A stretch of 64,000 nucleotides of DNA from positions 124,001 through 188,000 of the forward strand of contig NZ_RKLR01000004.1 of NCBI RefSeq assembly GCF_019599465.1, in the 5' to 3' direction. This stretch comes from Haloarcula rubra. Lineage in GTDB: Archaea > Halobacteriota > Halobacteria > Halobacteriales > Haloarculaceae. The translations under genes and the position numbers were made by a program. This document shows, piece after piece, positions 38,552-64,000 of this stretch. A model generated the notes under the pieces. It made no database searches. It worked only from the letters and a program-made list of their open reading frames with translations, and had not been told where the DNA came from. Position 1 is the stretch's first letter. Each line of letters starts with the position of its first letter.

Positions 38552-38621
38552 CTCCAATTTCACCCGGATGGAAATTACGAGGAGCATAGAGCTACTGCAA
38601 CCAAATTCCTTAGCAGTGAAT

Positions 38622-38652: not shown

Positions 38653-38781
38653 GTGGTCGGCTTGATTTCCGACGCCTCCACAACGGAACCAACGCCGGTT
38701 GTCTGCGAGTTCTGTGGGTTCTCTATTACTGACGACGGGCAGAACTGTCCCGCCCTCGATGACGGGAGGTGCCGCCCATGA
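38653..38781 (+). CDS. Very small zinc-finger protein, first gene of the left arm
   Basis: 42 aa with GTG start at 38653 (TTG at 38662 is an alternative). The sequence holds VVCEFCGFSITDDGQNCP then LDDGRCRP, a four-Cys pattern C-x2-C-x9-C-x8-C that could hold zinc. Its stop TGA overlaps the next ATG (ATGA), the same coupling used through the whole operon, which supports it being real despite its size. Likely a DNA- or protein-binding accessory factor of the element; function unknown. Confidence 0.55.
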   Translation: MVGLISDASTTEPTPVVCEFCGFSITDDGQNCPALDDGRCRP

Positions 38782-39863: not shown

Positions 39864-40381
39864 GTAGTACCACGGAGCTGGCCGACCCGAAGGCCATCGG
39901 CCTCGACGTTGAGGACCTCGTCGTCGGCACCGTCGATGCGCTTGCAGCCGCCGAAGACGACGATGCCCATCACGACGCTGTCGTGACCGAGCTACTCTGT
40001 CCGTCGCTCGTCGACGCCGACGTGCCTGTCGTGTTCTGTGGGACGCCGCTCGTGCCCGTGGGCGCCCACGTCGAGATCAAGGCGTGCAAACGCTGGACCA
40101 GCGACGGACCGGGTCGGTCCCGCGGTCGGTGGGTGCTGAAAGGTCGTGACGACGGCCAGCACGCCGCGCTGCTGGACGGCGCCAGCTACTACGCGCTGGC
40201 CGTCTACGAGACGACCCCCGGCGATGAGCGCGTGCTGGTCGCGATTGCTGTAATCCCGGCATCGCTCCTAGACGAACACCTGCGTGGTCGGTGGCGCGAG
40301 ACCGACCGTCGCGAGGGCACGCTCGCGAAACTCGGGTGGCCGCACCTGCTCGGCCGCGTTCTCGGGGGTGAGCCGGCGTGA
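39860..40381 (+). CDS. Possible PD-(D/E)XK-type nuclease
   Basis: 173 aa, GTG start overlapping the preceding stop. VDADVPVVFCGTPLVPVGAH precedes VEIKACKRW: an Asp followed about 20 residues later by Glu-x-Lys, the active-site arrangement of restriction-endonuclease-like folds. Then GRWVLKGRDDGQHAALLDG and SYYALAVYE complete a plausible alpha/beta core. It directly overlaps the methyltransferase gene, so it may be a partner nuclease or a recombination/resolvase-type enzyme. The catalytic motif is seen; the activity is inferred. Confidence 0.45.
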   Translation: MSSTTELADPKAIGLDVEDLVVGTVDALAAAEDDDAHHDAVVTELLCPSLVDADVPVVFCGTPLVPVGAHVEIKACKRWTSDGPGRSRGRWVLKGRDDGQHAALLDGASYYALAVYETTPGDERVLVAIAVIPASLLDEHLRGRWRETDRREGTLAKLGWPHLLGRVLGGEPA

Positions 40382-44101: not shown

Positions 44102-44438
44102 CGCCCGACAGCCGAGAGGCATCACTATCCAGCGTACTGGTTCTTTATAAGTGGTAACGCGGCCGAACCCCGTAACCCCTGTTTCGGGTGCAGTCGGTTC
44201 CCGGCTTGTTTCGGTCTCATCGGCAGTTGGTTGTCGGTCGCGTGCCCGCCCGGCGGGCAGCACCCCTTAGCGGGTGTGGCTAAGGCCACGCCCCTGCGGG
44301 GCGCAAAAATACACCCCGCCCCGCTGCCGCAGACTCCAGTTGAAGCACGCGAAACAAGGGTGTTGATCGAGGCTCTCTCACTATGGCTGGTATGTAACTG
44401 GGAATAAATTTATCAGTCACAAATCAGTAGAACCCGAT
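44102..44438. other. Structured, GC-rich non-coding region: candidate ncRNA or replication origin
   Basis: No open frame of note. A good TATA box, CTTTATAAG (44143-44151), is followed by GC-rich sequence containing stem-loops: CCCGC-CCG-GCGGG (within 44242-44262), CCTTAGC-7-GCTAAGG (44265-44285) and CGCCCC-TGC-GGGGCG (44289-44303). The last is followed by an A-rich run and then AT-rich DNA. An RNA starting near 44173 and ending near 44310 is one reading; an origin for the element is another. A second TATA-like AATAAATTTATC at about 44403-44414 serves the next gene. Confidence 0.4.
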
Positions 44439-46799: not shown

Positions 46800-47007
46800 T
46801 GCCTTCTCTACAATTGAGTGGACACTCATTGGTGTTTGTGTGAATTCTACTAGGTGAGTCTGTATTGAAACGTTTTGAACCCAGTCAGACTGACACCGCC
46901 CGTCGGTCCCGTAGAGTTCAGCCTGAGCGCCCGCAGAACCTTCGCTCGGAACTCGCTGTTGACCATGGGCGGAACTCTGCCACTCTGGCCTTGTAGTGCT
47001 ACCCCAG

Positions 47008-47385
47008 CTACAACTCGTCCAACAGCTTCTCGGCCTTCTTGTCCCCGATACCGTCGACGCGCTGGAGGTCCTCACAGTCGGCCGCGTGGAGATCGGCCAC
47101 CGTGTCGAACTCGTCAGCCAGCTCTCGAGAGAGTTCATCGCCGATGCCGTCGACGTCGTCACACATGTCTCGAATCGTACTCGCCCGGTCGTCGACGAGG
47201 ATGCCCAGCCGGCGTTCTAACTCCGTCTCGTCGATCTCGCCATCGAGATACGCTTGATGCACCTCCTCGACCGGCGACGGACCGGGATCGTCGGACTCCA
47301 GCCAGTCGCTCACCACCACGTACGAGCGGCCGACGACGAACACGAGTGCGGACAGACCGACCAGCAGTGCCCCGATATCGGTCAT
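47008..47385 (-). CDS. Membrane-anchored protein with SHOCT-like segment and helix-hairpin-helix
   Basis: 125 aa, last gene of the right arm. A TM helix (ALLVGLSALVFVVGRSYVVV) near the N-terminus. VEEVHQAYLDGEIDETELER resembles a SHOCT segment (short oligomerisation helix pair). Two HhH-like elements follow: DVDGIGDELSRELADEF and LQRVDGIGDKKAEKLLDEL, the last typical of DNA-binding HhH. The combination suggests a link between DNA and the membrane. Overlaps the upstream zinc-ribbon gene (ATGA). Confidence 0.6.
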   Translation of the reverse strand: MTDIGALLVGLSALVFVVGRSYVVVSDWLESDDPGPSPVEEVHQAYLDGEIDETELERRLGILVDDRASTIRDMCDDVDGIGDELSRELADEFDTVADLHAADCEDLQRVDGIGDKKAEKLLDEL

Positions 47386-47486
47386 ACCTGCGTGCGTCGA
47401 CGCCCACACGCCGGACACCAATCCGTCGACTGTTCAGCCGCACAGCGGACGCACGCGACCAGTGGCACCTCGAACGGCACACTCAC
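47382..47486 (-). CDS. Very small zinc-ribbon protein in the right arm
   Basis: 34 aa with GTG start at 47486. SVPFEVPLVACVRCAAEQ then STDWCPACGRRRTQV gives C-x2-C and C-x2-C knuckles, a minimal zinc ribbon. The GTG overlaps the TGA of the upstream gene and the stop overlaps the downstream ATG, consistent with operon coupling and supporting its reality. Confidence 0.55.
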   Translation of the reverse strand: MSVPFEVPLVACVRCAAEQSTDWCPACGRRRTQV

Positions 47487-47824
47487 GGCATGTCGACCTC
47501 CCGGACGCGCTGGGCGTAGGCGGCGACCAGCACGACGAGGCCGGCGACGATCGTCTCGGCGGGCACCTCCGACGGCAACAGCGGGACGTTCCCCGCCGCG
47601 ACGGGGGCGATGATCAGCCCGACGCCGAGGACCCACAGCAGTTTCCCCGGCGTCGGCGCGGCGACCGAGTCCAGCACGATCATGCCGAGGCCACCCACCG
47701 CGAGGGCGACGCCGATCACGACCGGCGCCAGTCCGTCCACGAGGAGATCCCCGACCACCGCGACGGGCAGCGCCGCCACCAGCATCGCGGTCGCGAGCTT
47801 CGCGAACACGCTACTGTTTGCCAT
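47483..47824 (-). CDS. Four-TM hypothetical membrane protein
   Basis: 113 aa, hydrophobic over most of its length with helices at about 8-30, 33-52, 62-78 and 85-105. Ala/Val/Gly rich, few charges. Start ATG at 47824 overlaps the adhesin stop. Resembles small integral membrane proteins of the element's particle module, but no family is recognised. Confidence 0.6.
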   Translation of the reverse strand: MANSSVFAKLATAMLVAALPVAVVGDLLVDGLAPVVIGVALAVGGLGMIVLDSVAAPTPGKLLWVLGVGLIIAPVAAGNVPLLPSEVPAETIVAGLVVLVAAYAQRVREVDMP

Positions 47825-49530
47825 CAGCGGCTCCTCCCGACGAGGTTGCTCACCGTCTGACCGATGTTTCCGTTCCCGAAGCGTCGGTACGCGAGGACGG
47901 CCGCGCCGGCCAGCAGGCCCACGCCGGCGACCGTCGAAGCCGTGCCGCCACCGCCGCCCGTCCCGGTCGGGCCGAACGCGGAGCCGCCGCCGAGCGTCCC
48001 CGAGAGGTCCGTCGTTCCGTTGAACGCCGTCCCGTTCGCGTACTCGCCGGAGTAGTCCAGCGTCGGGTTCTCGACCTGCGAGGCGTTGTTCGTCACGCTA
48101 TCCGAGAGTTGGCCCTGATAGAACCGCGTCGGGTCGTCGAACTCGCGAGTACCGTTGTATACCGGGTCGCCGCTCTCGTTCCGAATCGTGTAGTCGAACT
48201 CCTCGACGGGTTCCGGCGATTGGACCGTGACCGCGGTGCCGTTGCCGGTCAGCGACGACTCCAGTTCCGCGAACCGGACGTCGAGGCGTTCGTCGAGTGT
48301 CGGCGTCGCCGTCCCGTTCGTCTCTGTGGTCGCTCGCTTCGGCGCGTTGATGATGAACGTCGCCTGCTGGATCGACTTGACGGCGATGAACCCTTTTGTC
48401 TCCCACACTGCCGGTTCGTCGCTGATGATCGTGAAGTTGTACGTCTTGCCGTCTAAGAGGTTCACGAACGCCTTCGTGTTGTGGTTGAACGATGTGACCG
48501 AGACTGTGCCGTCCGGGCGCTCGGTGTACAGTTTCAGATCGTCGGCGAAGAGGTCGTTCTCGGTCCGGTCGTCGAGGCCGAACTCCATCTCGAAGCGGTC
48601 GGTGTCGACCATCGCAAAGTCGACGCCTGTGACGTCGCTACCCGATACCGTGACGTTCTGGGAACTGTTCTTGTAGCCCGATTTCGACGCCGTGATCTCG
48701 TAGTCGCCGTCCTTCAACGAGAACGAGTAGTAGCCCGTGGCGTTCGTTGTCGTCGACTTGCCGGTGTCCGTTTCAACCGTGGCGTTTTCGAGTGCGTTGC
48801 CGTCAGTGTCCGTGACAGTTCCGGAGACTTTGGAGGTCGAGGGTTGTGCGTTACCGACGATATTGTCGATAACCATGTGGGGTCCTTGATAGGTCCGCTG
48901 GTCCCAATTGACCGCTCCGATACTATTCCCATTCTGGTAAAACGCGATAGAATTGCTTTCAGAAATTAAATTTCCGGACGTGTCGTAAGCCGCCACCGTG
49001 TAGCTGTTTGAACCGTAATCCGGTCGGAAAAAGACCCTAACGTGTTCTTCTGTTGGGAAAGTAACGTTGGTATCGTACCACGATGAACCATCATAGTACC
49101 GAATAGTTACGCTCCCACTCCCCGCGTTATAGCGATTATACATTAGTTTGTTCCCGTCCACTTGGTCCCACAATCCTTGTCCGACTTCTTGACTCCCCGC
49201 CTCGAAATAAACCCACATTGAGATATTGTCGAACGACCCGGAGTTATGGAAAGAGCCTTCCATATACTCCTTACTGTGGAGCTCTAAAGCGTAGTCGTCG
49301 TTAACGGTGTGGTTCGTCGTTATCCGACCAACATCGTTTATTGAACAACTACCGTCGCAATGGTACTCATTCAAATCTCCGTCTGCAAATTGGTCCAAAT
49401 CCGTCCCGCCATAGGGAGTAGGAGAGCTTGCCGCTCCCGCAATTTGGGCCGCTCCAGATGCTATCAACAGTATCGCGATGCCGCCGGTTTTCAGTAGCTT
49501 TTGCCAATCTCTATCATCTTTGTTTGTCAT
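47824..49530 (-). CDS. Large secreted adhesin-like protein with lectin-like and carboxypeptidase-regulatory domains and C-terminal TM
   Basis: 568 aa surface protein, candidate receptor-binding protein of the element. Signal peptide about residues 12-34. Residues 41-229 look like a concanavalin-A/LamG-type beta sandwich (DQFADGDLNEYHCDG, MWVYFEAGSQEVGQGLWDQV, HMVIDNIVGN). Residues 233-305 are a carboxypeptidase regulatory-like domain (VSGTVTDTDGNALENATV, GYYSFSLKDGDYEITASKSG). A Thr/Asn-rich region with N-glycosylation sites follows, then a TM helix and basic tail (AYRRFGNGNIG) that anchor it. Base composition changes at about 48840, the boundary of the first domain. Confidence 0.75.
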   Translation of the reverse strand: MTNKDDRDWQKLLKTGGIAILLIASGAAQIAGAASSPTPYGGTDLDQFADGDLNEYHCDGSCSINDVGRITTNHTVNDDYALELHSKEYMEGSFHNSGSFDNISMWVYFEAGSQEVGQGLWDQVDGNKLMYNRYNAGSGSVTIRYYDGSSWYDTNVTFPTEEHVRVFFRPDYGSNSYTVAAYDTSGNLISESNSIAFYQNGNSIGAVNWDQRTYQGPHMVIDNIVGNAQPSTSKVSGTVTDTDGNALENATVETDTGKSTTTNATGYYSFSLKDGDYEITASKSGYKNSSQNVTVSGSDVTGVDFAMVDTDRFEMEFGLDDRTENDLFADDLKLYTERPDGTVSVTSFNHNTKAFVNLLDGKTYNFTIISDEPAVWETKGFIAVKSIQQATFIINAPKRATTETNGTATPTLDERLDVRFAELESSLTGNGTAVTVQSPEPVEEFDYTIRNESGDPVYNGTREFDDPTRFYQGQLSDSVTNNASQVENPTLDYSGEYANGTAFNGTTDLSGTLGGGSAFGPTGTGGGGGTASTVAGVGLLAGAAVLAYRRFGNGNIGQTVSNLVGRSR

Positions 49531-49827
49531 TTAGTGTAGCACCTCCGAAACTCGATTGACGAACTGTCCAACCGCCGACACGGCACTCCCGACGTCGACG
49601 ACGCCGCTGTACGTCCCGACGACCGCCAGTACCAGCACGACGAACCCGATGAGCGAGAGCACTCGCGAGTACCGAGCGAGGACCACGAACGCGTCGGCGG
49701 CCTCTCGCAGGTACCACAGGCCGACGACGACCGCCGCCAGCCCGCCGATGGCGACGCCCTCGACGCCGACGTGACTCGCCAGCAGTTCCAGCAGCGATTT
49801 CACGAGCTCGTAGACGACGGCAGCCAT
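49531..49827 (-). CDS. Three-TM hypothetical membrane protein
   Basis: 98 aa, ATG at 49827 (GTG 49830 in frame). Predicted helices at about 20-38, 45-60 and 63-80; the C-terminus is amphipathic (VSAVGQFVNRVSEVL). Stop directly precedes the adhesin ATG. Preceded by about 195 bases without a gene, the only sizeable gap in the arm apart from that at 55.2 kb. Confidence 0.6.
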   Translation of the reverse strand: MAAVVYELVKSLLELLASHVGVEGVAIGGLAAVVVGLWYLREAADAFVVLARYSRVLSLIGFVVLVLAVVGTYSGVVDVGSAVSAVGQFVNRVSEVLH

Positions 49828-49980
49828 CACGCGGACGCACCTCCGCAGTACTGTGTGCGCGTGCCCCCGGGGGGCCGCTCGTGTCCTATCGGAGTAACGC
49901 GCGCGTGCGAAGCCGAAATCTCGACCGGCTTCTCGCGGCCGCTCGACCCCGATTTCGGTTTTCGACCCCTGCCCCCTGCT

Positions 49981-50009
49981 CGCTCAGATTTTTTAAAAAT
50001 TTCTGAGCG
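49981..50009. repeat. AT-rich inverted repeat after the ATPase gene
   Basis: CGCTCAGA (49981-49988) is repeated inverted as TCTGAGCG (50002-50009), enclosing TTTTTT and AAAAA runs. It lies 13 bases past the end of the ATPase gene and 154 bases before the next start. It could be a terminator/processing hairpin or a promoter for the adhesin group; the sequence does not decide. Confidence 0.45.
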
Positions 50010-50022
50010 AACAGCGATTTGC

Positions 50023-51420
50023 TCAAGCACTGCCGACCGCCTCCTGCCAGTTCAAAAAGTCGATGCTGACCTCGGCGTCCAGTCGGGCATCGCCCTTCAT
50101 GTTCGGCCACTTGAGTTTCGCAAAATTCGGCGCCTTCCACGGCATCCCTTCGCCAGTGTCCATGTCCGAGGTCAGGTCCTCGTTCAGTGGACACGAGCGG
50201 TCGCCGGGCAGCGTTCGGCCCAGTGGCGGCGAGTTACCGTTCATGGTCAGCCGCCAGCGAATCTTCTGGCGGGCGAACCGATGGACTTCACTCAGTGCGT
50301 GGGCCTGGTAGGAGAACGAGAGCCCCTTTTTCCGGGCGTCGGCGTACTTGTTCCTGAACCACTTGATCTTGTCATAGTGTTCGTGTGCGTCTTTCTCGGC
50401 GTCGGCGTCGAGGATGTTCCCCGCTTCGTCGAGGTTGATGAACGTCGGATGCACGAACACGTCGCCCGTGATCCGGTGGGCGACGAACGCGAACCACCAG
50501 TGATCCGCGTCAGTCGGTTTCGTCGGCCCGTCCTCGTCGACGGGCGTCGTCATCCGGTAGTCGAAGAAATTGAACTTCGAGACGTCGCGACAGCCTCGAT
50601 GCAACGGGTCGGGGAAGACGACGTAGAACTGCCCGGGCAGCAGCTGGCTCATCAAGTCCTGCACCGACTCGTAACGGATGACGTCCCGCGTGATGTCTTC
50701 TGGGCGGACCTCGAACTCGTCGACGCCGTGGGCTTCGGGCACGATCCGGACCCGCGTGTTCATCCCCTCGGGAATGGCTAGCGTCGCGTAGGGTGCGAGT
50801 GCCAACCATTCGGTCCGCTCGTTCGTCCCCGACTCGTCGACGGACTCGGCCCAGATGCAGGTCTCGTTGTTGACCTGCATCCGCCACATCACCATCGACA
50901 GTGCCAGCGTCGTCTTGCCGCCGCCGGGCTCGCCGTGGATGAACATGTCGGTCCCTTTCACCGCGCCGATCCGGTTGACCCGGCTCGGCTTGTCGGCGAT
51001 CCACTCGAAGACTTTCGCTCGATACGGCGGGTAGCGCTCCAGTGCCTCGTGAGAGAGGCGGGCGTTGTCCGGGTGGTAGTCCACCTTCCCGGCCAGTGCC
51101 CGGAGGAGTTCGAGATCGCGTTCATCCGTGTAGACGAGGGCGTCGACGAACGCCTCTGGATGTTGGGCGATGGACATGGGGACGCCCTCGGCGTCGTGGA
51201 GATACTGGTGGAGCGGCTTCTTGCCGAACCGCTTGTGGATGTCCTCGCCGTCGTTGTGGTTCTTCGCCGCCGGGTCGCCCAGCGCCTGACACGACGTCGT
51301 GTGTGGCTCCGTGAGCGTCCGTAGCTGATCCCGGATCTGGGGCTGTGAATCCGCCTTCTCCGGGAGTATCTGTTCGCTGATCGTCTGTGACTCTGCGCTC
51401 TCGTATGGTATCTGACTCAT
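50023..51420 (-). CDS. P-loop ATPase of the right arm
   Basis: 465 aa. Walker A FIHGEPGGGKTTLALSMVMW (residues 160-179, core GEPGGGKT) and a hydrophobic strand ending TFINLDEAGN (about 326-335) as Walker B. The remainder is helical with LSFSYQAHALSEVHRFARQK near the end, similar to the sensor part of FtsK/HerA-like or viral packaging ATPases. No TM helix. Probably energises DNA loading or assembly of the particle. ATG 51420 overlaps the upstream stop by one base. Confidence 0.7.
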   Translation of the reverse strand: MSQIPYESAESQTISEQILPEKADSQPQIRDQLRTLTEPHTTSCQALGDPAAKNHNDGEDIHKRFGKKPLHQYLHDAEGVPMSIAQHPEAFVDALVYTDERDLELLRALAGKVDYHPDNARLSHEALERYPPYRAKVFEWIADKPSRVNRIGAVKGTDMFIHGEPGGGKTTLALSMVMWRMQVNNETCIWAESVDESGTNERTEWLALAPYATLAIPEGMNTRVRIVPEAHGVDEFEVRPEDITRDVIRYESVQDLMSQLLPGQFYVVFPDPLHRGCRDVSKFNFFDYRMTTPVDEDGPTKPTDADHWWFAFVAHRITGDVFVHPTFINLDEAGNILDADAEKDAHEHYDKIKWFRNKYADARKKGLSFSYQAHALSEVHRFARQKIRWRLTMNGNSPPLGRTLPGDRSCPLNEDLTSDMDTGEGMPWKAPNFAKLKWPNMKGDARLDAEVSIDFLNWQEAVGSA

Positions 51421-52187
51421 CACCAATCAGGTTGCTCCGTGTCGTTTCCAGCGCCTTTCTCGGGCAGTTCGCCAGCCCGGCCGATGCGCACGCGGACGCC
51501 AGCTCTGAACTTCGGGAGGAGGTGCGTAGCCGCGAAGAGCCGCCGCGACCGCTCGTGCTCTGGCCTGTCGCCGGTCAGCACGTCGACGGTCGCGCCCTCC
51601 TGATAGACGCGCTTGCCCCACTCTGCGCCGAGTTCGCCGTGCGTGGCATCCAGCACGTCGCTACTCCAGCCGATAACGGCCGGCTTGTCGTCGAGGCCCT
51701 CGAGTAACTCGGCCAGTACCGACTGTTGAAGCTGGTCGAGTTCGGTCAGCCCAGGTCGCATCCCGATGTGCTTCTGCTGGCGTGGGTCGTGCGTGTCGCC
51801 CTCGTCAGCAGATTCGACGTACTCGGTCACGTCGTTCCGGAGTTTCCGGAAGGCGTTGCGGTGGGCTGGCTGGACGTGGGTGACGAGGATGCGCTCGCGA
51901 ACGTCCTTCGCAACCGCTTCGTCGAGGTCGCGCATCGGTCCCCGGCGTGCCGACGGCCGGAGCATCGCCCCGAGGAGAAGGCCCTGTTGACCGCGGAACT
52001 GGCGGGCCATGTCAGCGTACATCCGGCGGTCGAGACGGCCGAGCGTCCGGACCGTCATCTCCTGGAGCCACTCCAGCACGCGGTCTTCCGAGCGGAGGCC
52101 CGCCCGGAGTTCGTCGGCGCGGTCGCGCACGTTCGTTTTCAGCGTGACCAGTGCGGGCGTGTACGACGAGTCCTGCGCGTCACTCAT
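51420..52187 (-). CDS. Charged helical protein, function unknown
   Basis: 255 aa. Start at MSDAQDSSYTPAL (52187), overlapping the upstream stop. Strongly helical with Arg/Asp/Glu patterns: RADELRAGLRSEDRVLEWLQ, AHRNAFRKLRNDVTEYVESA, TELDQLQQSVLAELLEGLDD. No TM. Its C-terminal part (AAVIGWSSDVLDATHG is near, HLLPKFRAGVRVRIG later) could be a small globular domain. Placed between the polytopic protein and the ATPase, as an adaptor would be. No family recognised. Confidence 0.55.
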   Translation of the reverse strand: MSDAQDSSYTPALVTLKTNVRDRADELRAGLRSEDRVLEWLQEMTVRTLGRLDRRMYADMARQFRGQQGLLLGAMLRPSARRGPMRDLDEAVAKDVRERILVTHVQPAHRNAFRKLRNDVTEYVESADEGDTHDPRQQKHIGMRPGLTELDQLQQSVLAELLEGLDDKPAVIGWSSDVLDATHGELGAEWGKRVYQEGATVDVLTGDRPEHERSRRLFAATHLLPKFRAGVRVRIGRAGELPEKGAGNDTEQPDW

Positions 52188-53880
52188 CGTTATCACCCTC
52201 ATCGGCAGCCAGCGAGCCGTTCGTCGCCTCGCGGCGGTGATCGGTCACGCTCTCGTCGGTGTCGTCGTTCCGGATCGCCGCCGGCACCTCGCCGTCGGGA
52301 TCGTAGGACTCCTCGATGAGCGTGCGGTCGTGGTCGGCGACCTTCTCGTCGATTGCGCGTTGCTTGCGGACGCGTTCCCGGTCGAGTTGGTCTTTGACCT
52401 CTTCGAGGTGTTTCGCGTCGTCGACGTCCTCGGCGAACTGGACCATCGTTCCGAACGCCGAGCGGAGATGCATCGGCGCCGGACGGACCGCGGCCTTGCC
52501 GTCGACTGGCGTCGCCAGCCACACGAGAAGGCCCATCGTCGTGACGGTCGTGACTGGCCAGAACGACGCCAGCCCGTAGTGGACCGACCCGATAGCCAGA
52601 ACGATAGCGCCGACGATAGCCAGCCACTCACCGCCGTGGTCGCGGTCCAGCGGCGGCCAGTCGATCGTCCAGTGCTCTGGCTCGTAGAACAGCAGTTTCT
52701 CGCTCTCTGGGTCGACGACGAACATCTCGTCCCATTTCGACCCCTCTTTCAGCGGCACGCGCGTCCGGAGTTGTTCGACGTTCGCGAGTCGAGCGCTCTT
52801 GCCGAAGACGCGGGCGAGGAAGGGGAACAGACCCGATTTCACGACTGCGACGCCGTGCTCGGTCCGGACGATCTTCTCCACATCCATCTCGCCGTCGATG
52901 ATGTCGTAGGAATTCTGCCCCTCACGAGTCGGGCTCTCGGCGTGTTCGAGCGTGGGGCGGAAGAACACCGCCTTGCTGACGTTGTTCGTGTACGTCTCCA
53001 GCAGGATGATCGCAAACAGCCCCACGACGTACAGTGAGACGACGTACTGGGCGTTTACGACGAGCGACGCCACGCCTTCGTAGAAGAGCAGGCCACCGAG
53101 GCCAGTCCCCAACGAGAGGGCGATGATCCACGGCGTATAGCCGTACTGCGGGCCGATTCCTGCTTTGTCGAGTCCCTGTTTGCAGAGCCAGCCGACGGCG
53201 AACCCACCGACGACGATGATCGCTAGGAAATCGACGATGACGCTGGCGATGTAGTCACCGGCACTGTTGATGTCCACGGACTGCGTGGTAGCGATGCTCT
53301 TGTGTCTGAAGTTCGCCCATCGCGCGTACTCTTTGCCCTCGATCCACATCGTCACGCGGACTGCCTCGTCGTGCTGGCGGAGTGGGATCTTCACCGTGGG
53401 CCGCCCTCGCTCGAACGTGACGTCGTGCGTGACGTGCGTGACGTTCTTCGCGACTGGGACCGTCGTGGTCGTGTTGCCGCGCTGGACCGTCTTCTGGCCT
53501 TTCTCCCAGTAGGCGACGTGGACGGTCTCCTGCTGGTCGCCGTAGGTCCAGGTGCGGAGATACACGGCGTTCCGGCCGACCGTGTGGCCGGGCGGCAGGT
53601 ACTCGCCGCTATCGGTCGCACCGGGGTTGGCGAAGGGGTTGTTGGCCGGCCAGTAGACGACCCAGAAGAACTGGTCCTGGCCCATCCGGACGCTCGGTGG
53701 GGAGTTCGCCTGTCGCGGGCCAGTCTGGGTGAGGTCGTCGAGGGTCAGGCCACTCTCGTCGCTGGCGCTGGCGTTGCCGGCCGTCTCGTTCCCGACCTGT
53801 TGGGCGTCGACGGCGCCGACGACCGGTGAGAGGACCAGCAGGCCGACCAGCGCCAGCAGCGCGATGGGTGCCCGGCTCAT
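52180..53880 (-). CDS. Secreted-ectodomain polytopic membrane protein with C-terminal coiled coil
   Basis: 566 aa. Signal peptide (residues 1-26), an ectodomain to about 205 containing FFWVVYWPANNPFANPG and HVAYWEKGQKTVQRGN with N-glycosylation sites, then three TM helices (about 210-300), a cytoplasmic region (KIVRTEHGVAVVKSGLFPFL and FVVDPESEKLLFYEPEHW), two further TMs (about 425-470), and a charged coiled coil (LEEVKDQLDRERVRKQRAID). The layout suits a scaffold or DNA-to-membrane coupling protein. It overlaps both neighbours. Confidence 0.6.
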   Translation of the reverse strand: MSRAPIALLALVGLLVLSPVVGAVDAQQVGNETAGNASASDESGLTLDDLTQTGPRQANSPPSVRMGQDQFFWVVYWPANNPFANPGATDSGEYLPPGHTVGRNAVYLRTWTYGDQQETVHVAYWEKGQKTVQRGNTTTTVPVAKNVTHVTHDVTFERGRPTVKIPLRQHDEAVRVTMWIEGKEYARWANFRHKSIATTQSVDINSAGDYIASVIVDFLAIIVVGGFAVGWLCKQGLDKAGIGPQYGYTPWIIALSLGTGLGGLLFYEGVASLVVNAQYVVSLYVVGLFAIILLETYTNNVSKAVFFRPTLEHAESPTREGQNSYDIIDGEMDVEKIVRTEHGVAVVKSGLFPFLARVFGKSARLANVEQLRTRVPLKEGSKWDEMFVVDPESEKLLFYEPEHWTIDWPPLDRDHGGEWLAIVGAIVLAIGSVHYGLASFWPVTTVTTMGLLVWLATPVDGKAAVRPAPMHLRSAFGTMVQFAEDVDDAKHLEEVKDQLDRERVRKQRAIDEKVADHDRTLIEESYDPDGEVPAAIRNDDTDESVTDHRREATNGSLAADEGDNDE

Positions 53881-54104
53881 GTCGTGGTGAGCTCCTCCAC
53901 GTACCGAGCGCGTCTGTCGACCCGTTTCAGCGCCACCAATAGGCCCAGCACTGCGAGGACGGCGAACCCGGTCAGCGCGTACTGGCCGGCCGCCGCGGTC
54001 GCCGCACCGATGTACGCCGCCGCGCCGAGACTGGTGAGCGTCGCGATCGCCTCCGGCGCGATCTGTGGGTGGGTCAGCGTCGCCAGCGAGTACGGGGCAG
54101 TCAT
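53877..54104 (-). CDS. Small two-TM membrane protein
   Basis: 75 aa. Helices at about 22-40 and 43-60, then a basic C-terminus (ALKRVDRRARYVEEL). ATG 54104 overlaps the upstream stop. Similar in size and layout to other members of this arm; no named family. Confidence 0.55.
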   Translation of the reverse strand: MTAPYSLATLTHPQIAPEAIATLTSLGAAAYIGAATAAAGQYALTGFAVLAVLGLLVALKRVDRRARYVEELTTT

Positions 54105-54343
54105 GCGACCACCACCCCGACGTCGAGGGCGGTCGACACGGACTGTGCCATCACTTCGGCCCCGCGCTCGATGATGACTGCCGGCCCGCCGCCGATGGAT
54201 TGCGCGAGACCGTTCACGAACTCGCCGAACGCCCGGCCGGCGTCGCCGCCCCAGTTGAAGATGCCGTCCAGCAGGTTCTGGACGCCACTCGGGACGGCGT
54301 CGGGGAGTGTCGGCGCCCCGCCAGGGCCGCCCTTAGGTGGCAT
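54101..54343 (-). CDS. Small amphipathic protein of the right arm
   Basis: 80 aa, starting MPPKGGPGGAPTLPDAVP. FNWGGDAGRAFGEFVNGLAQ and IIERGAEVMAQSVSTALDVG suggest amphipathic helices and weak membrane association, not a clear TM. Start lies inside the end of the upstream gene. Unknown function. Confidence 0.5.
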   Translation of the reverse strand: MPPKGGPGGAPTLPDAVPSGVQNLLDGIFNWGGDAGRAFGEFVNGLAQSIGGGPAVIIERGAEVMAQSVSTALDVGVVVA

Positions 54344-54812
54344 CGTCCACCTCCGCCGTGCGGATAGCTTCAGTCTCGACGTGGCCGACGAGGAGCCGAC
54401 TCTCGGCGTCGGCAGCCGCACACTCGCCGGAGCAGTAGGTCCACTCGCGCCGATTCCGCTCCGTGACGACCGTTAGCGGGCCGACGCTGGCCCGTCGCGG
54501 TGTACCCGATGCACGGACCTCCACGAACTCACTGACGCCGTCGCGACTCGACTGCGACCGGATGTGCCCGCCGCACGCCTCGCAGTGTGCCTCACACTCC
54601 GGTAGGCCGTTATCGTAGGCCAGCATGGCACCGATGAGTGCGAAGAACCCACCAGCGACGAGGCCGACGAGCGGGTCATTCCCGAGCATGACCCACTCGA
54701 CAAGCGCCTTTCCGATGGCCCACAGGCCGACGCCAGCGATCACGAGTCCCAACCAGCCACCGAGCGAGAGGTCCGACAGTCGGACGTCGTCGAACTCGAC
54801 GAGGTCAGACAT
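54333..54812 (-). CDS. Two-TM protein with cytoplasmic zinc finger
   Basis: 159 aa. TM helices at about 19-37 and 47-65 (GWLGLVIAGVGLWAIGKAL, GLVAGGFFALIGAMLAYDNG). Then ECEAHCEACGGHIRSQ and a later WTYCSGECAAADAESR: Cys pairs and His that may bind zinc. Begins eight bases within the preceding gene's end. Confidence 0.55.
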   Translation of the reverse strand: MSDLVEFDDVRLSDLSLGGWLGLVIAGVGLWAIGKALVEWVMLGNDPLVGLVAGGFFALIGAMLAYDNGLPECEAHCEACGGHIRSQSSRDGVSEFVEVRASGTPRRASVGPLTVVTERNRREWTYCSGECAAADAESRLLVGHVETEAIRTAEVDDAT

Positions 54813-55188
54813 ACTCGTCCACCTCCACGACGAGGAAGACGAGGCCGATGAGCGCCAGTGCGATGCCGACGTACTGGGACACGGTGAGCGAGATCGCGCC
54901 CGACAGCGCTCCAGCGCCGAGGCCACCGACCGCGAAGTTACTCACGAAGTACGGGTGACTGACGACGAACTCGATAGCCATGCCGACGAGGTCGCCGAAC
55001 TGGACGAGGCCCATCATCACGGCACCGCCGACAGCCATCGCGATGGCCGTTACCCACTGCGTGGTTCGATCCCACGAGACGCTGAGATCCTCGCTCCGGG
55101 CATACGCGACGGCGAACCGGAGGAGGAACACGGTGCCGAGGATGGCGACGAACGCGCCGATGCCGGCCACCGGATCCATCGTTGGCAC
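54805..55188 (-). CDS. Four-TM membrane protein, similar in shape to pleolipovirus VP3
   Basis: 127 aa from GTG 55188, or 124 aa from ATG 55179. Helices at about 8-25, 43-62, 72-90 and 98-120. The GTG overlaps the stop of the small upstream frame (TAGTG). Size and four-helix layout resemble small integral membrane proteins that line the inside of pleolipovirus particles; no sequence signature proves the link. Confidence 0.55.
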   Translation of the reverse strand: MPTMDPVAGIGAFVAILGTVFLLRFAVAYARSEDLSVSWDRTTQWVTAIAMAVGGAVMMGLVQFGDLVGMAIEFVVSHPYFVSNFAVGGLGAGALSGAISLTVSQYVGIALALIGLVFLVVEVDEYV

Positions 55189-55274
55189 TATCGGCCACCT
55201 CCCGGCCCGCTGTTGGTTCGCCCTCTCCGTGAGGGGATTCGATCCGTTCGTTTCGTGTGTGTCGTGTGTTTCAT
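55188..55274 (-). CDS. Very small basic peptide frame
   Basis: 28 aa, MKHTTHTKRTDRIPSRRG then a Gly-rich end. Its ATG overlaps the upstream TGA (ATGA) and its TAG overlaps the downstream GTG (TAGTG). That double coupling is the only reason to consider it real. A basic peptide could bind DNA. Confidence 0.3.
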   Translation of the reverse strand: MKHTTHTKRTDRIPSRRGRTNSGPGGGR

Positions 55275-55558
55275 CTATTGTTGAACCACTTCTGAGCCCG
55301 GTCAAGGCCCTTGTCGGCGAGAATGACGACGTACAGCACCGCGGCGGCGACGAGAAGTTTCGTCCCGAGTTCCGCATAGCCGAGTTCCGGGAGAATCGTC
55401 GCCGCCGTCGTCGCGACTGCTGGGAACCAGTAACCCGACGTCGCCGACAGCAGGCCCCAGAGCGGGTCGAACAAGCCGAGGCCGAGGCTCCCGAGTGCGC
55501 TCAGGATCACCGCCCCGCCTGTCAGCGGATGTAGTACGAGATTTTTGAGTCGTTCCAT
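55271..55558 (-). CDS. Three-TM membrane protein
   Basis: 95 aa beginning MERLKNLVLHPLTGGAVIL. Helices at about 13-28, 35-53 and 66-83; basic tail DKGLDRAQKWFNNR. ATG 55558 is 3 bases from the upstream stop. Unknown function. Confidence 0.55.
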   Translation of the reverse strand: MERLKNLVLHPLTGGAVILSALGSLGLGLFDPLWGLLSATSGYWFPAVATTAATILPELGYAELGTKLLVAAAVLYVVILADKGLDRAQKWFNNR

Positions 55559-55560
55559 GG

Positions 55561-55992
55561 TCAGGTCCCGGGAATCAGCATGTACAGCTTCCAGGCGATC
55601 GCCGGCAGGCGTTTCAGCAGCTCCCAGCCGAGGTACACGAGCACGGCCGTGAACCCGACTGCGAGTATCGGTGCGGCCCATCCAGCGCTGGCTATTACCC
55701 CCGCAATCGCCTGCTGGACCGCTGAGTACGCACCGAGCAGATCGACACCGAGTGCGCCGAACACGTTGATGAGCGTCACGCGGATGACGTCGAACGTGCC
55801 AGCGACGACGTCGAACATCGCCAGAATCGTGTTCACGCCGAAGGCGCCGACGTTCAGCACCGCGTTGATGATGTACGCCGAGATGATGCTCCCGACGAAC
55901 GCTACCGGATTCGTGGCGAACTGAAACAGCGTCTTCGCGACGCTTTTCGGCGCTCTCAGCGTGAACAGTGTCTCAGTGTCGTCAGCGGACAC
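55561..55992 (-). CDS. Multi-TM membrane protein
   Basis: 143 aa. A cytoplasmic N-terminus (MSADDTETLFTLRAPKSVA) is followed by hydrophobic segments near 28-48, 55-80 and 100-125, ending LKRLPAIAWKLYMLIPGT. It overlaps the upstream gene by 11 bases. No conserved family recognised; likely a structural membrane component. Confidence 0.55.
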   Translation of the reverse strand: MSADDTETLFTLRAPKSVAKTLFQFATNPVAFVGSIISAYIINAVLNVGAFGVNTILAMFDVVAGTFDVIRVTLINVFGALGVDLLGAYSAVQQAIAGVIASAGWAAPILAVGFTAVLVYLGWELLKRLPAIAWKLYMLIPGT

Positions 55993-56326
55993 GAGACACC
56001 ACCCACGCTATTGGAAACAGCGTTGCCAGCACGATCATCAGCGCCACGACGTAGCCGGCAATCCCGGCGTCGGCGACGTACGGTATCGCCGCCGCGAACC
56101 CGCGGTTGATTATGACCGCCGGCAGGCCGTAGACGACGCCGACCGCCGTCGCAGCGAACTCGGTGAGGCCGGACAGCAACTCTAACGGGACGTTGACCAG
56201 CGACAGAAACGCCGAGATAGTCCCTCGGAAGTACGCGAGGATGCTCGCCCCGAAAATGAGGGTCAGCAACCGCCCCCAGCGGATCGAGACGCCGTTCTCG
56301 GCGATGTAGTCGCTGATTTCGACCAT
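55982..56326 (-). CDS. Multi-TM membrane protein
   Basis: 114 aa. Segments at about 18-38, 50-72 and 88-110 (GYVVALMIVLATLFPIAWVV). N-terminus MVEISDYIAENGVSIRWGRL is amphipathic. Adjacent genes overlap. Unknown function. Confidence 0.55.
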   Translation of the reverse strand: MVEISDYIAENGVSIRWGRLLTLIFGASILAYFRGTISAFLSLVNVPLELLSGLTEFAATAVGVVYGLPAVIINRGFAAAIPYVADAGIAGYVVALMIVLATLFPIAWVVSRVR

Positions 56327-56327
56327 G

Positions 56328-56780
56328 CTATCCCTCTTCCTCTTCTTCGGAGTCGGTCCAGCCCGGCGTCGGCACGTCGAAGCCCGTCCCGATCAACGGG
56401 AAGAAGTTCGTCGTGTCCTCCTCGCTGATGTACGCCAGCAGGACGTAGAACGCCAGCAGGACAATGGCGAACCCGAAGACGAACGACAGCGGGCTGGCGA
56501 ACCGGCCACCCGGGCCAATCGAGAGTGCGCTGGCGATAGCCCCGAAGTTGATGATCTGGGCCGTCCCACCGAATACCGCGTTGATGAGGTCGCCTGCGGC
56601 GGCGATGAACGCCTGCGTCGGGACGATGAACACGTCTGCCAGCGTGAAGATGCCACTGGCGAGCGCCGCGCCGAACGCGAACAACACGGCGCCGATCCCC
56701 TGGAAGAGGACGGCACCGATGCTGCCCGCGTTGGCCGCCCGGTCGAACAGACTCCGGACTCGTGGCCCACCAGCCGACAC
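56328..56780 (-). CDS. Multi-TM membrane protein with acidic tail
   Basis: 150 aa. Hydrophobic segments at about 20-45, 50-75 and 100-122 (LSFVFGFAIVLLAFYVLLAY), and an acidic C-terminus ending in a run of Glu. Lies two bases after the spike-like gene's stop. Possibly interacts with the spike-like protein; unknown. Confidence 0.55.
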   Translation of the reverse strand: MSAGGPRVRSLFDRAANAGSIGAVLFQGIGAVLFAFGAALASGIFTLADVFIVPTQAFIAAAGDLINAVFGGTAQIINFGAIASALSIGPGGRFASPLSFVFGFAIVLLAFYVLLAYISEEDTTNFFPLIGTGFDVPTPGWTDSEEEEEG

Positions 56781-56782
56781 GA

Positions 56783-58273
56783 TCAGGACCCTCCGAGCTT
56801 CCGTTTCAGGCCCACAGCGCCGAGGATGACGCCGACGACGCCGGTTACCTGTGCCCAGATGGACGAGAAGAACCCGCCGCCGGACGTCCCGGTCGGACCA
56901 CCGGCCAGCGACTGCAGGATCGTGTCGATCTCCTCGTCCTGATAGAGGATGACCATGTGGACACGGTAGTTCGTATCAGCGCTGGCGTCGGCGACGAACG
57001 TCGCCGTCGAGCCCTGCGACCCCAGCGTGTCCGTGACGCTCGCGTAGGCGCCGTCCTGGTCGGTCAGGTTGCCGAACTCTTCGTCGGTGTCGGTGCCGGT
57101 CGCCACCTCTGCGATAGCGTAGCGGGACTCGACGAGGCCCTGTTCGAACTCCAGCGTGATCGTGCCGTGGCTCAAGTCGATGGCCGACGGCACCTCCATG
57201 TCCGCGTACAGTTCCAGCTTCTGCGGGTAGTTGTAGTCGTCCGCCGATGAGACGTTCGTTGAGTACTCGTCGGAGTCCGTGATGTCCGAGAGCTGGTACT
57301 GGACGTCGTAGACGTGCAGGTCGTTGATGACCGCGTCGTCGTAGATACCGCCCAGCGTGTCGAGGTCGGTGATGTTCGCGACGCCGCCCTCGTAGTAGTT
57401 CGTGACCGTCGTCGTCTCGAGCTCGCCGTCGCCGTCAGTGTCGCGTTCGATCTCCGCGAGGTCGGCCTCGCTCTTCTTGTCCAGATCGAGGCCGGCCATC
57501 GTAACGGTCACGTCGTTGTCGACGCCGACGATCTCGACTTTCTGGATGCCGTCGAAGCTGCCGTCACCGCTGCCGGCCAGCGGGAGGTTCGCCAGCTTCT
57601 CGGCGAACACGATGCCGTTGCCCGTGCTGTTGGCGGCGATGTCTTCGGCGGACGCGTCGGCCGAGCCGTTGATCTCGGCGTAGCGGTAGTCGCCATCACT
57701 GTCGACGGCGCGGATCTCGGCCGTTCCCGAAAGCGTGTCGACGTTCAAGACCGTCGTCAGCACGCGCTTGTTGGGGTCCGAGTCGATGGACACGTTGTCG
57801 GCGTAGGTCGCCGTCGCGGTCTCGCCGCTGGCGATGGTAGCCGCGAACTCCAGCTTGTCGACGCCGTCAGCGTCGGCGTCGCTGACCGACATGGACGAAG
57901 ACGCTCCGGAGGATGTCGTCCAGTCCGATGCGACGGTCCAGTTCGCGGAGTTCGACGACTCCCCATCGATGCGCGGGAACAGGTGATACGCGTCGGCGTC
58001 GATCTGGTCGAAGCGAACGCCGACAGGCGTGTCCTGTGACTGGTTGACCGTCGCCGGCAGCGAGGTCAGTTCACCGGAGTCGTTGTAGTACTGTGTTGCC
58101 GAGGACATCTCCGAGTTATCCCACTCGTCGATGACGAGTTCATCCTCGACGGCTGTCGGGTTCGGCGCTTTGTCCGAATTGAAGTTCAGGCCGGGCGCCG
58201 CGGTGGCGGTGCCGGCGATGGGCGATGCGATAACGGTCAGAGTGAGGAATACGGCGAGTATTGCGCGTCTCAT
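56783..58273 (-). CDS. Spike-like secreted membrane-anchored protein
   Basis: 496 aa, likely the main surface protein of the element's particle. Signal peptide (AILAVFLTLTVIASPIAGTA, about 4-25), a 430-residue acidic ectodomain with many N-glycosylation sites (NQS, NWT, NVS, NGS, NST, NIT, NLT), and a C-terminal TM (SSIWAQVTGVVGVILGAVGL) with a short basic tail (KRKLGG). This is the plan of pleolipovirus spike proteins (about 500 aa, C-terminal anchor, followed by small membrane proteins). Sequence identity to them cannot be judged here. Confidence 0.65.
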   Translation of the reverse strand: MRRAILAVFLTLTVIASPIAGTATAAPGLNFNSDKAPNPTAVEDELVIDEWDNSEMSSATQYYNDSGELTSLPATVNQSQDTPVGVRFDQIDADAYHLFPRIDGESSNSANWTVASDWTTSSGASSSMSVSDADADGVDKLEFAATIASGETATATYADNVSIDSDPNKRVLTTVLNVDTLSGTAEIRAVDSDGDYRYAEINGSADASAEDIAANSTGNGIVFAEKLANLPLAGSGDGSFDGIQKVEIVGVDNDVTVTMAGLDLDKKSEADLAEIERDTDGDGELETTTVTNYYEGGVANITDLDTLGGIYDDAVINDLHVYDVQYQLSDITDSDEYSTNVSSADDYNYPQKLELYADMEVPSAIDLSHGTITLEFEQGLVESRYAIAEVATGTDTDEEFGNLTDQDGAYASVTDTLGSQGSTATFVADASADTNYRVHMVILYQDEEIDTILQSLAGGPTGTSGGGFFSSIWAQVTGVVGVILGAVGLKRKLGGS

Positions 58274-58539
58274 TCGTTCTCTGGGCGGTTCCGGTCGCTA
58301 CCCGTGGTTGGCTGGTCGGTGCCGCCGTCTGTGGCTGGCGACGGGATCGGGTGGTCTATGTCGGCTTTCGCCCGATCGACGGCGCTTCGGGCACCCTGCT
58401 GGCCGGCGACCCAGAGCGTCCCCAGCACGAGCGGGAGTGCCAGCAGCACTGCCGACAGGCCGGCCCAGTTCGCCGTAGCGAGGATGGACGCGATGGTCGC
58501 GTAGCCGGCCAGATGGACGAGGGTGGCGCGGTCGTTCAT
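58270..58539 (-). CDS. Small two-TM membrane protein upstream of the spike gene
   Basis: 89 aa. Helices at about 6-25 and 28-46 (LSAVLLALPLVLGTLWVAGQ), then a polar tail rich in Asp/Thr/Pro. Start MNDRATLVHLAGYATI at 58539, overlapping its upstream neighbour; its stop overlaps the spike start. Confidence 0.55.
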   Translation of the reverse strand: MNDRATLVHLAGYATIASILATANWAGLSAVLLALPLVLGTLWVAGQQGARSAVDRAKADIDHPIPSPATDGGTDQPTTGSDRNRPENE

Positions 58540-58712
58540 GTGTCACCCGCGAGGAGTTCGGCGGCGAGGTCGCGGCTGGCGCCGGCCGCCTCACGGCGTG
58601 CTCGCTCGCGCCTTCGCTCGTCGACGTTTCGCCACTCGGTTCGGAACGGTCGATTCGCGGTCTCGGCCGCGCTGTCCGGTGGTTCGTCGCCACCGGACGT
58701 GTGGTCGGTCAT
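58536..58712 (-). CDS. Small charged protein, first gene of the right arm
   Basis: 58 aa starting at MTDHTSGGDEPP (58712). The C-terminal half is a highly charged helix (RNVDERRRERARREAAG, then ASRDLAAELLAG). The TATA-like TATTTAC (58793-58801, minus strand) implies a leader of about 55 bases, unlike the leaderless genes elsewhere. An in-frame ATG at 58805 would overlap that promoter. Confidence 0.5.
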   Translation of the reverse strand: MTDHTSGGDEPPDSAAETANRPFRTEWRNVDERRRERARREAAGASRDLAAELLAGDT

Positions 58713-58867: not shown

Positions 58868-59125
58868 ATGCAGAAGCTCCAGAACCGGAACGGATCTGGT
58901 GTGGTGACCGTGCCGAAGAATTTCCTCGACCGCGACGGCCTCCTTGACGAGGACGGCGAACCGGACGAGTCGCATCTCACTGTCGATCGGTTGGGAGAGC
59001 GTGCCTACTTCGTCCGCGTGTGTGACGGCGACATTCCCGAACTCCACGAGTGTGAAGTCATTCAGCGTGTCGCCGCCGAGCGGATGCTCGAAGAGGACGT
59101 GTTCGGACGGCGGCAGGGCGAGTAA
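58868..59125 (+). CDS. AbrB/SpoVT-like regulator, candidate repressor of the element
   Basis: 85 aa. The N-terminus KLQNRNGSGVVTVPKNFLDR is a swapped-hairpin AbrB-type DNA-binding start, as in haloarchaeal virus and plasmid regulators. The rest (LTVDRLGERAYFVRVCDGD) continues the small beta fold and ends in a charged helix. Divergent from the particle arm with the 14-base palindrome between them. TATA box about 22-30 bases upstream. Most likely controls both promoters; this is inference. Confidence 0.65.
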   Translation: MQKLQNRNGSGVVTVPKNFLDRDGLLDEDGEPDESHLTVDRLGERAYFVRVCDGDIPELHECEVIQRVAAERMLEEDVFGRRQGE

Positions 59126-60362: not shown

Positions 60363-60959
60363 CTACAGAGAGATGTTATCGAACGCATCATCGATGACTG
60401 ACTCACTGGGTGCGTTCAGATACGGTTCTATCGCTGCGAAGCTCTCCCAGCCGCCGACTGCCATCACCACGCGTGGGTTCATCTGCTGGTCGACGAGGAG
60501 TCGTTGGGCGAACCGGCGGCGGAGATCGTGCGTGCTCACCTTCTCGAAATCGGCGTCGCCGGTCTCGTCGGCCGCTCGCTGGGCGGTCCGGCGGACCACG
60601 GCCCGGACGCCCGGCTGTGTCAGGTCGACGTACGGGTCTTTCGGTACGATGTTGTGCTCGTTCTGGTAGCGCTGGAGGTCGCGCTCGACGCTGTCGGGGA
60701 GGTAGGCGTCGCGTGGCTTCCCGCCGTTCCCGCTGGTGTCCTTGCCCGAGCGGACCCGGAGGCGGTACTGGTCGCTCTCGGTCTGTTTGACGTCGACGGG
60801 ACTGACTTGCGGGATTTCGAAGGCGCGCAGGCCGACGAACGCGCCCAGCTGGATGATGAGGTCGTCGCGCTGGCTGGTGGTCGCTCGGCGGAGGTCCTCG
60901 ATCTCGCTGTCGGTGAGCCAGACTTTGTGTTCGTTTCCATCGGTGGCTTCGATTCGCAT
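60363..60959 (-). CDS. int: Tyrosine recombinase / integrase
   Basis: 198 aa, compact catalytic-domain form without a core-binding N-terminal domain. Catalytic residues can be placed: Arg45 in GLRAFEI, Lys73 in VRSGKDTSG, His144 and Arg147 in THDLRRRFAQ, Trp171 at the second His position in AVGGWES, and Tyr180 in EPYLNAP. It would integrate and excise the element, and its nearest tRNA is tRNA-Pro, 22 kb away. Gene reads inward. It is short, so help from other DNA-binding proteins may be needed. Confidence 0.85.
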   Translation of the reverse strand: MRIEATDGNEHKVWLTDSEIEDLRRATTSQRDDLIIQLGAFVGLRAFEIPQVSPVDVKQTESDQYRLRVRSGKDTSGNGGKPRDAYLPDSVERDLQRYQNEHNIVPKDPYVDLTQPGVRAVVRRTAQRAADETGDADFEKVSTHDLRRRFAQRLLVDQQMNPRVVMAVGGWESFAAIEPYLNAPSESVIDDAFDNISL

Positions 60960-62874: not shown

Positions 62875-63348
62875 TTAGGCGTCCGGACCGGACCACTCTG
62901 CGAGCGTCGCCGAATTGTCGCCCTGTTCCGATCGGTACGTGACCCTGACGTTTGCCTGGTCGAAGTTGCTCCCGTCCTGTTCGATTGTTACCGAGGCGCC
63001 AGCAGAGATTTCGCTGCCGTCACCGTATGCGTCGAATTGGTCCCACGTAGCTGAACTCACTGGGCCAGATAAGCCGGTCCCGTCGAAATCTTCATTGGAA
63101 ATTACAGTGAGGGTCTGCGCCTCGATAGTGTCACCACCGTCATGCGTGATATCCAACTGTGGCGTACCGGAGCTATCGTAGTCGAAGCTGAAGCTCGCCT
63201 GTGGGGCTGTATTGCTGACCTGGTCGCCCAGACCGAGAACGAATGTTGCAATCACGGCCGCGAGGATCACGGTGATCGCGACCATGAGGATTACGCCTAT
63301 GACGGGTGAGACACCCTGGTCGTCGGAGAGTAGTTTGCGAATTTCCAT
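62875..63348 (-). CDS. Archaeal type IV pilin (pilin_N domain)
   Basis: 157 aa. The prepilin signal is [18 protein letters not shown], cut by PibD after the Gly, followed by the hydrophobic helix [19 protein letters not shown]. The mature part is a short beta-rich domain with [20 protein letters not shown]. These form adhesive pili or contribute to biofilms. Its divergent neighbour at 63678 has nearly the same N-terminal half, so the two are paralogues. Confidence 0.85.
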
Positions 63349-63379
63349 TGTTGTTCAACGGAAAGCCGGCGACAGAGTT

Positions 63380-63397
63380 TTGTTAGTTCCCTAACAA
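63380..63397. promoter_or_regulatory. Inverted repeat in the pilin intergenic region
   Basis: TTGTTAG-TTCC-CTAACAA, perfect seven-base arms. It lies about 32-49 bases before the 62875-63348 pilin start, at the BRE/TATA position of its promoter, and may bind a regulator. The 63349-63677 gap of 329 bases otherwise holds no gene. A second TATA box (TCTTTATAAC, about 63638-63645) lies 30-40 bases before the 63678 pilin. Confidence 0.4.
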
Positions 63398-63677
63398 CCA
63401 CTGTTTGCTGTTGGGTGGTTCTGTCCACTCGACTTTCTCGTAGTATCCAAGTTAGTAGCCACATACTTAAACCCATCACGGTGATTACAGAGTCTGAGAA
63501 CGCCCACCGTTTCAAATGCCTGATAATCGGAGCGGTGCATTATTCGGACATATCAGGGTCTAAGAGTGGATTTCAACTCAGTCTTGAAGCGATGAAATCC
63601 AGACTTGAAAATGGGAAATTGCCGAACGGTAGTATATCTTTATAACATTCGATATTATGGTAGTTTACGTACAACCT

Positions 63678-64000
63678 ATGGACCTGAAAGCACTGATTAA
63701 CGACGACGATGCGGTTTCGCCTGTCATAGGCGTGATCCTCATGGTCGCCATCACCGTCATCCTCGCGGCCGTGATCGCGTCCTTCGTCCTTGGACTCGGA
63801 GACCAAGCACAGCAGACAACGCCTCAGGCGAGCTTCAGTTTCGACTACGAATCAAGTTCTCACAGCTTAGGCGGGACGACCTACGATGGATATCTTGATG
63901 TAACTCACGATGGAGGCGATTCCATCTCAATAGACGAAGTGTATATCCGTGGTAGTGGTTCCAACACTACTGATTCATGGGCGAACATCGGAAGTTCAAC
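63678..64000 (+). CDS. Archaeal type IV pilin (partial at window end)
   Basis: At least 107 residues, cut by the right edge. N-terminus MDLKALINDDDAVSPVIG with the hydrophobic helix [20 protein letters not shown] and the shared ASFSFDYESSSHSLGGT start of the beta domain. TATA box upstream. It is a paralogue of the divergent pilin at 62875: the helix is nearly identical, while the beta domain differs after about residue 55. Confidence 0.8.
   Translation, partial: MDLKALINDDDAVSPVIGVILMVAITVILAAVIASFVLGLGDQAQQTTPQASFSFDYESSSHSLGGTTYDGYLDVTHDGGDSISIDEVYIRGSGSNTTDSWANIGSS

Follow-up and report, generated by a model that had tools for sequence, protein, structure and literature searches.

The window analysed here, a stretch of 64,000 nucleotides of the Haloarcula rubra contig NZ_RKLR01000004.1 (positions 124,001 to 188,000), carries an integrated element of 29.9 kb (38539-68478), the right end of which lies beyond the window. 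The element joins a replication region to a long operon of membrane and secreted proteins, the structural arm (47008-58712), whose recurrent genes are called the module below; proteins are named by the first coordinate of their genes. Its insertion site is a tRNA-Pro gene, and a 19-nt repeat flanks it on either side. In a sister genome (G299) the same flanks lie 0.86 kb apart, versus 30.1 kb here, and thus form a near-empty site, and in genome G337 the same site is occupied by 27.7 kb containing a DUF7845 gene and a module ATPase. An earlier sequence-only reading of this DNA covered the arm and did not delimit the element, missing the replication initiator (Rep), the origin, Orc1/Cdc6, the integrase and the attachment (att) sites, all of which lie outside the arm.

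Gene content and recurrence of the structural arm

The arm consists of 18 minus-strand open reading frames (ORFs) over ~11.7 kb (Table 1), arranged almost without gaps, with stop and start codons often overlapping and a high third-position GC content throughout. The sequence-only reading had recognised this near-gapless arm and had counted twenty genes in it, where we find about 18. The main arm proteins, but not the smallest transmembrane (TM) ones, were scanned against Pfam, PHROGs and NCBIfam; above cut-off, none of them matched a capsid, portal, protease, terminase, tail or conjugation protein, in agreement with what had been noticed from the letters. An Rfam scan gave no match.

The module is widespread. 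The ATPase was found in 69 of the 391 sampled haloarchaeal genomes and 52180 likewise in 69, 67 genomes having both, and module marker genes occur in 23 of 86 genera. Gene order, compared in the closest loci and in 23 further loci, is nearly constant: divergent regulator, spike, paired two-TM paralogues, 55561-like and 55271-like proteins, variable genes, 52180, 51420, ATPase and again variable genes, among which one for a large, anchored protein of adhesin-like type is frequent. The arrangement of the arm is not due to chance, as over 30 loci in other species show the same order. Repeats of att type bound six elements of 26-34 kb, the present one included; the tRNA genes concerned are those for Pro, Met, Pro, Lys, Lys and Arg.

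Plasmid searches with the ATPase and 52180 returned only Haloarcula and Halosegnis records. The Haloarcula marismortui plasmid pNG300 (L123) carries 52180, 51420, the ATPase and small TM genes, and pNG200 (L002) of the same species carries the module ATPase; these plasmids may therefore be episomal forms of the same agent. On the Halosegnis marinus plasmid (L003:6880-27673) the module is accompanied by Cdc6 and by a neighbouring gene for a type-B DNA polymerase, which brings to mind the PolB replicon that the gammapleolipovirus His2 has. Only the regulator, the short integrase and the module ATPase are left on a plasmid of Haloarcula sp. GH36 (L001:9148-15125), a probable remnant.

Table 1. 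Features of the element, in window coordinates; positions marked L052 lie past the window edge
Feature	Position	Strand	Evidence or remark
attL	38539..38557	+	identical attR at L052:10460-10478 (68460-68478 on the window scale)
CxxC ORF, 42 aa, adjoins attL	38653..38781	+	sequence
DNA cytosine methyltransferase, operon upstream of Rep	40378..41874	+	Pfam PF00145, 9e-35
DUF7845 replication initiator (Rep-Arvir), 544 aa	42467..44101	+	PF25227, 1.2e-97
Predicted origin GTGTGGCTAAGGCCA, exact SNJ2 ori motif, 15 nt	44274..44288	+	173 nt after Rep stop
Membrane-tethered helix-hairpin-helix protein	47008..47421	-	PF14520, 1.2e-11
Small multi-TM protein	47483..47824	-	
Variable secreted adhesin-like protein, 568 aa, C-terminal anchor, carboxypeptidase-regulatory domain	47824..49530	-	PF13620, 1.9e-17
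Two-TM protein	49531..49830	-	
Core P-loop ATPase, 467 aa; GEPGGGKT, hhhhDE, RKxGxS-x5-H-x5-VH	50023..51426	-	alignment
Soluble core protein, 260 aa (255-260 aa in family), no fold assigned	51420..52187	-	
Core polytopic protein, 566 aa: signal, beta-rich ectodomain, TM segments, C-terminal coiled coil	52180..53880	-	
Small TM protein	53877..54104	-	
Small protein, weak member of the 56328 paralogous family	54101..54343	-	
Two-TM protein with CxxC motifs	54333..54812	-	
Three-TM protein	54805..55179	-	
Small TM protein, kept in most relatives	55271..55558	-	
Three-TM protein, kept in most relatives	55561..55992	-	
Small two-TM protein, paralogue of 56328	55982..56326	-	
Small two-TM protein, paired with its paralogue 55982; in most relatives the pair directly follows the spike	56328..56780	-	
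Spike-like secreted protein, 496 aa, C-terminal TM anchor	56783..58273	-	AlphaFold2, Foldseek, family alignment
Small TM protein, 1-2 TM, near operon start	58270..58539	-	
Small charged protein, operon gene 1	58536..58712	-	
AbrB-like regulator, divergent from structural operon	58868..59125	+	E 1e-12 to 2e-17
Short tyrosine recombinase, common to relatives and LSV-48N	60363..60959	-	PF00589, 9e-10
Rest of element to window edge, with two type IV pilin genes	62875..64000		
Orc1/Cdc6	L052 6260-7270		44% to SNJ2
Winged helix-turn-helix regulator, related to HHPV-4 regulators	L052 7844-8200		
SNJ2-type tyrosine integrase, 448 aa, directly before attR	L052 9049-10395		38% identity to SNJ2 integrase

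Some genes outside the arm look like cargo. The region between Rep and the arm (44000-47000) falls to ~41% GC, versus 66% nearby, a sign of recent acquisition. An Mrr-type restriction endonuclease is encoded there (44608-45045) and may, like the methyltransferase in the Rep operon, serve in defence or protection. The two pilin genes near the right end (62875-64000; L052:4875-6139) are perhaps cargo affecting attachment.

The replicon and its exchange between elements

By tblastn the Rep, whose counterpart in HRPV-3 is ORF9, matched 21 phage records, of which those listed were pleolipoviruses, and its profile aligned with betapleolipovirus Reps at 100%. The catalytic tyrosine (Y283 in SNJ2) is invariant among the 26 sequences compared. 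The present Rep also retains E25, and it has a glycine at the place of E303, as do HGPV-1 and HRPV-3. In SNJ2 the DUF7845 protein drives replication, with evidence for a rolling-circle mechanism, and the ori motif is experimentally needed (PMC13107129). This motif is found, letter for letter, in five of the seven elements tested, the present one among them, and its distance from Rep is here that of the reference viruses. When the junction of the excised circle is read, the integrase is immediately followed by a 62-aa ORF that extends across attP, and the CxxC ORF comes next, a layout described for pleolipoproviruses (PMC7911831). The AbrB-like regulator is homologous to SNJ2 gp11, HRPV-9 gp10 and Harhisp1_140, which occupy the same slot and also diverge from the structural operon. 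It is practically certain that we are dealing with an integrated mobile element that has a betapleolipovirus-type replicon.

Elements bearing the module do not form one clade in the DUF7845 Rep tree and are interleaved with betapleolipoviruses: one groups with SNJ2 and HHPV-4 (support 0.97-1.0), three group with HRPV-3, HGPV-1 and Harhisp1 (0.98-1.0) and the others branch outside. Structural modules have therefore been exchanged repeatedly on this replicon. In one genome (G237 C1; L066, L039; module-oriented 46021-60000) a true betapleolipovirus provirus, with an NTPase 45% identical to that of SNJ2 and a second DUF7845 Rep, lies in tandem right behind a module-bearing element at the same tRNA-Pro. 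As the Rep is also found in pleolipoviruses and in the lemon-shaped virus LSV-48N, the replicon is common to at least three different structural modules. Distance-matrix correlations (spike-52180, r 0.71; 52180-51420, r 0.86; ATPase weaker; Rep 0.38-0.58) do not cleanly separate the structural genes from Rep, and we therefore used only the tree to argue for module exchange.

Comparison of the arm with known structural proteins

Pleolipoviruses carry, between regulator and Rep, the genes VP3-spike-ORF6-ORF7-NTPase; here the arm fills the same slot, with a spike at its 5' end and an NTPase near its 3' end. The element could thus belong to the Pleolipoviridae and have an enlarged arm, its structural cluster being strongly diverged, with 52180 in the place of ORF6/ORF7 and the ATPase in that of VP8. 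We consider this unlikely. The ATPase speaks for it in some measure: with the pleolipovirus NTPase profile, several of the module's ATPases are picked up (best 4e-5) and outrank most of the P-loop ORFs from elsewhere, and the two families share two blocks, including RKxGxS-x5-H-x5-VH. In hhalign they match at 61-94% when the alignments are uncontaminated, but control P-loop families reach 72-89% with the module ATPase, so that homology beyond the P-loop fold is possible and not shown. A match of 99.4% was discarded as an artefact of mixed alignments, the expanded pleolipovirus alignment having contained the module's own ATPase family. These likenesses are only suggestive of a remote relationship between the module ATPase and the pleolipovirus NTPase. 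ORF6 aligns with the ectodomain of 52180 over 31-34 columns only (36-72%), a short and uncertain match. Against common descent, the profiles of the other structural proteins stayed below 10%: the spike (HRPV-1 VP4) reached 3.7-9.3%, with nothing by tblastn, ORF7 at most 7.6%, and VP3 under 10%. With the HRPV-3 ORF6-like protein no arm protein exceeded 2%, and one weak match (32%) fell on the backbone protein g39860. Since the spike and ORF6/7 tests failed, we do not claim membership in the Pleolipoviridae. The pleolipovirus likeness proposed in the sequence-only reading holds for replicon, layout and regulator; the profile comparisons, which it had itself put forward as a check, speak against it for the structural proteins.

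The ATPase found no match above cut-off in Pfam or NCBIfam and none in a PDB sequence search with its profile; PHROG 22963 matches it, the source virus of that PHROG not being found, and a scan of genome contigs gave only one irrelevant bacterial locus. Apart from the uncertain ATPase and ORF6 matches, these comparisons and those with lemon-shaped viruses below detected no homology between the module and structural modules already known.

The spike has a signal, and AlphaFold2 models it with moderate confidence (pLDDT 69) as an all-beta protein with a C-terminal TM helix and a domain resembling carbohydrate-binding modules. Foldseek matched parts of the chain to the turret of Haloferax tailed virus 1, to carbohydrate-binding modules and to viral tail-fibre-like proteins; the pleolipovirus spike fold was not among the 50 best PDB matches of this moderately confident model. 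The model suits a glycan-binding surface spike, which is not proof of that role. Several spike homologues have an RR-type leader before the hydrophobic stretch, consistent with export by the twin-arginine (Tat) pathway. The model of 52180 is of low confidence (pTM 0.35), too uncertain to interpret, and gave no significant fold match. The adhesin-like 47824 has homologues only in the closest relatives, a variability as expected of a protein that may take part in host recognition.

Might the arm build a lemon-shaped virion like those of LSV-48N, His1 and the fuselloviruses, coated by the paralogous pair of small two-TM proteins? We give this only a small chance. The pair recalls VP1/VP3 of SSV1, and LSV-48N shares with the element its Rep, its short integrase and a further backbone gene; LSV-48N also has no recognisable capsid gene (PMC12714723). 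However, no arm protein was related by profile to the structural proteins of LSV-48N, and His1 gp21 and SSV1 VP3 both stayed below 1% in hhalign. A conjugative or cell-surface apparatus (pilus, adhesion or secretion) on an integrative element appears less probable still: a single ATPase, a polytopic protein, surface adhesins and the occurrence of DUF7845 in conjugative elements would fit it, but the main proteins, scanned with Pfam and NCBIfam, matched no relaxase, VirB4, TraG, VirD4, VirB6 or pilus ATPase, and the layout of the replicon is that of viruses. A vesicle-disseminated plasmid of the pR1SE/apHPV kind, of which the sequence-only reading had been reminded, is very improbable: membrane and secreted proteins, an ATPase, integration, cargo genes and the presence of module parts on plasmids (pNG300, the Halosegnis plasmid) are in its favour, but those plasmids came from two genera only, the Pfam scan of the large arm proteins found no peptidase to stand for the core subtilisin-like protease (pR1SE ORF7), and no pR1SE-type similarity was found, the pR1SE record itself not having been compared directly.

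Interpretation and likeness to known systems

The best reading of the element is that it is the provirus of an undescribed, non-lytic, membrane-enveloped agent, and of the possibilities raised by the sequence-only reading this one fits best; it also withstood the conditions set there for giving it up, as the scans showed no capsid, tail or conjugation protein and the module order recurs in other genomes. Gene content and position make it probable that the arm produces an extracellular membrane particle. The SNJ2-type integrase would excise the element from tRNA-Pro, and closure of the circle would place the integrase, the attP-bridging ORF, the CxxC ORF, the methyltransferase and Rep on one strand; Rep would then start rolling-circle replication at the hairpin motif behind its own gene. 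From behind the AbrB-like regulator, the divergent operon would supply the host membrane with a spike that binds glycans and with a number of small multi-TM proteins, and there the conserved trio 52180-51420-ATPase may assemble the particle and load its DNA. We infer that the particle would leave by budding without lysis and be infectious, the spike and the variable adhesin recognising the next host.

Several points weigh against this reading. The ATPase could serve another function. No proven virion protein is homologous to the spike or to the other structural proteins; among 50,697 phage records nothing matched the queries tried for spike and ATPase, nor did peptide-pattern scans of IMG/VR give a match, where an abundant virus might be expected. 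DUF7845 Reps are, moreover, known from plasmids as well as conjugative elements (PMC13107129).

On balance we favour, with some reserve, the view that these elements represent an undescribed haloarchaeal virus family, or a vesicle replicon that is infectious, whose membrane-particle module is its own and has no capsid, with proviruses in ~17% of the sampled species and repeated swaps of replication cassettes with pleolipoviruses. What is known of archaeal viruses without a capsid comes mainly from a single vesicle-like family. If the same replicon carried a second membrane-particle module, seemingly unrelated to the first, in at least 23 genera, this would imply that viruses of this kind are put together from interchangeable cassettes and that a haloarchaeal virus group, although common, has so far been overlooked. 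As the species that carry the elements can be cultured, the formation of particles can be tested directly.

Among known systems, the apHPVs and pR1SE resemble the element in integration, in cargo and in the notion that membrane vesicles carry a plasmid or provirus out of the cell; they differ in their replication genes and in the protease. Their core also comprises two conserved clusters, with ORF6 and ORF25, and a variable region, a division not seen here. LSV-48N (25 kb), a Haloferax virus alike in its replicon, differs in a structural arm unrelated by profile, in having no AbrB-like homologue and in its layout. The plasmid pNG300 keeps its module genes in the same order as here, but is circular and gave no detectable spike match. 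Halfvol2, a Haloferax volcanii provirus described as a novel and probably enveloped group, whose circle was recovered from virus stock (PMC7911831), is compared here by description only: it is smaller, at only 12.3 kb, and is likewise integrated at a tRNA gene, with several TM proteins and no match to known viruses. Closest of all in the replicon are the betapleolipoviruses, especially SNJ2, HHPV-4, HRPV-9 and Harhisp1. They differ in size (9-19 kb versus 29.9 kb) and in structural proteins, their spike, ORF6, ORF7 and VP3 having no convincing homologues in an arm with many more small TM proteins and an adhesin behind the ATPase. They have in common with the element the Rep with its catalytic tyrosine, the ori motif and its spacing, the SNJ2-type integrase beside the tRNA att site, the attP-bridging ORF with the CxxC ORF, the divergent AbrB-like regulator, an operon with the spike upstream and the NTPase downstream and, in SNJ2 and Harhisp1, Orc1/Cdc6.

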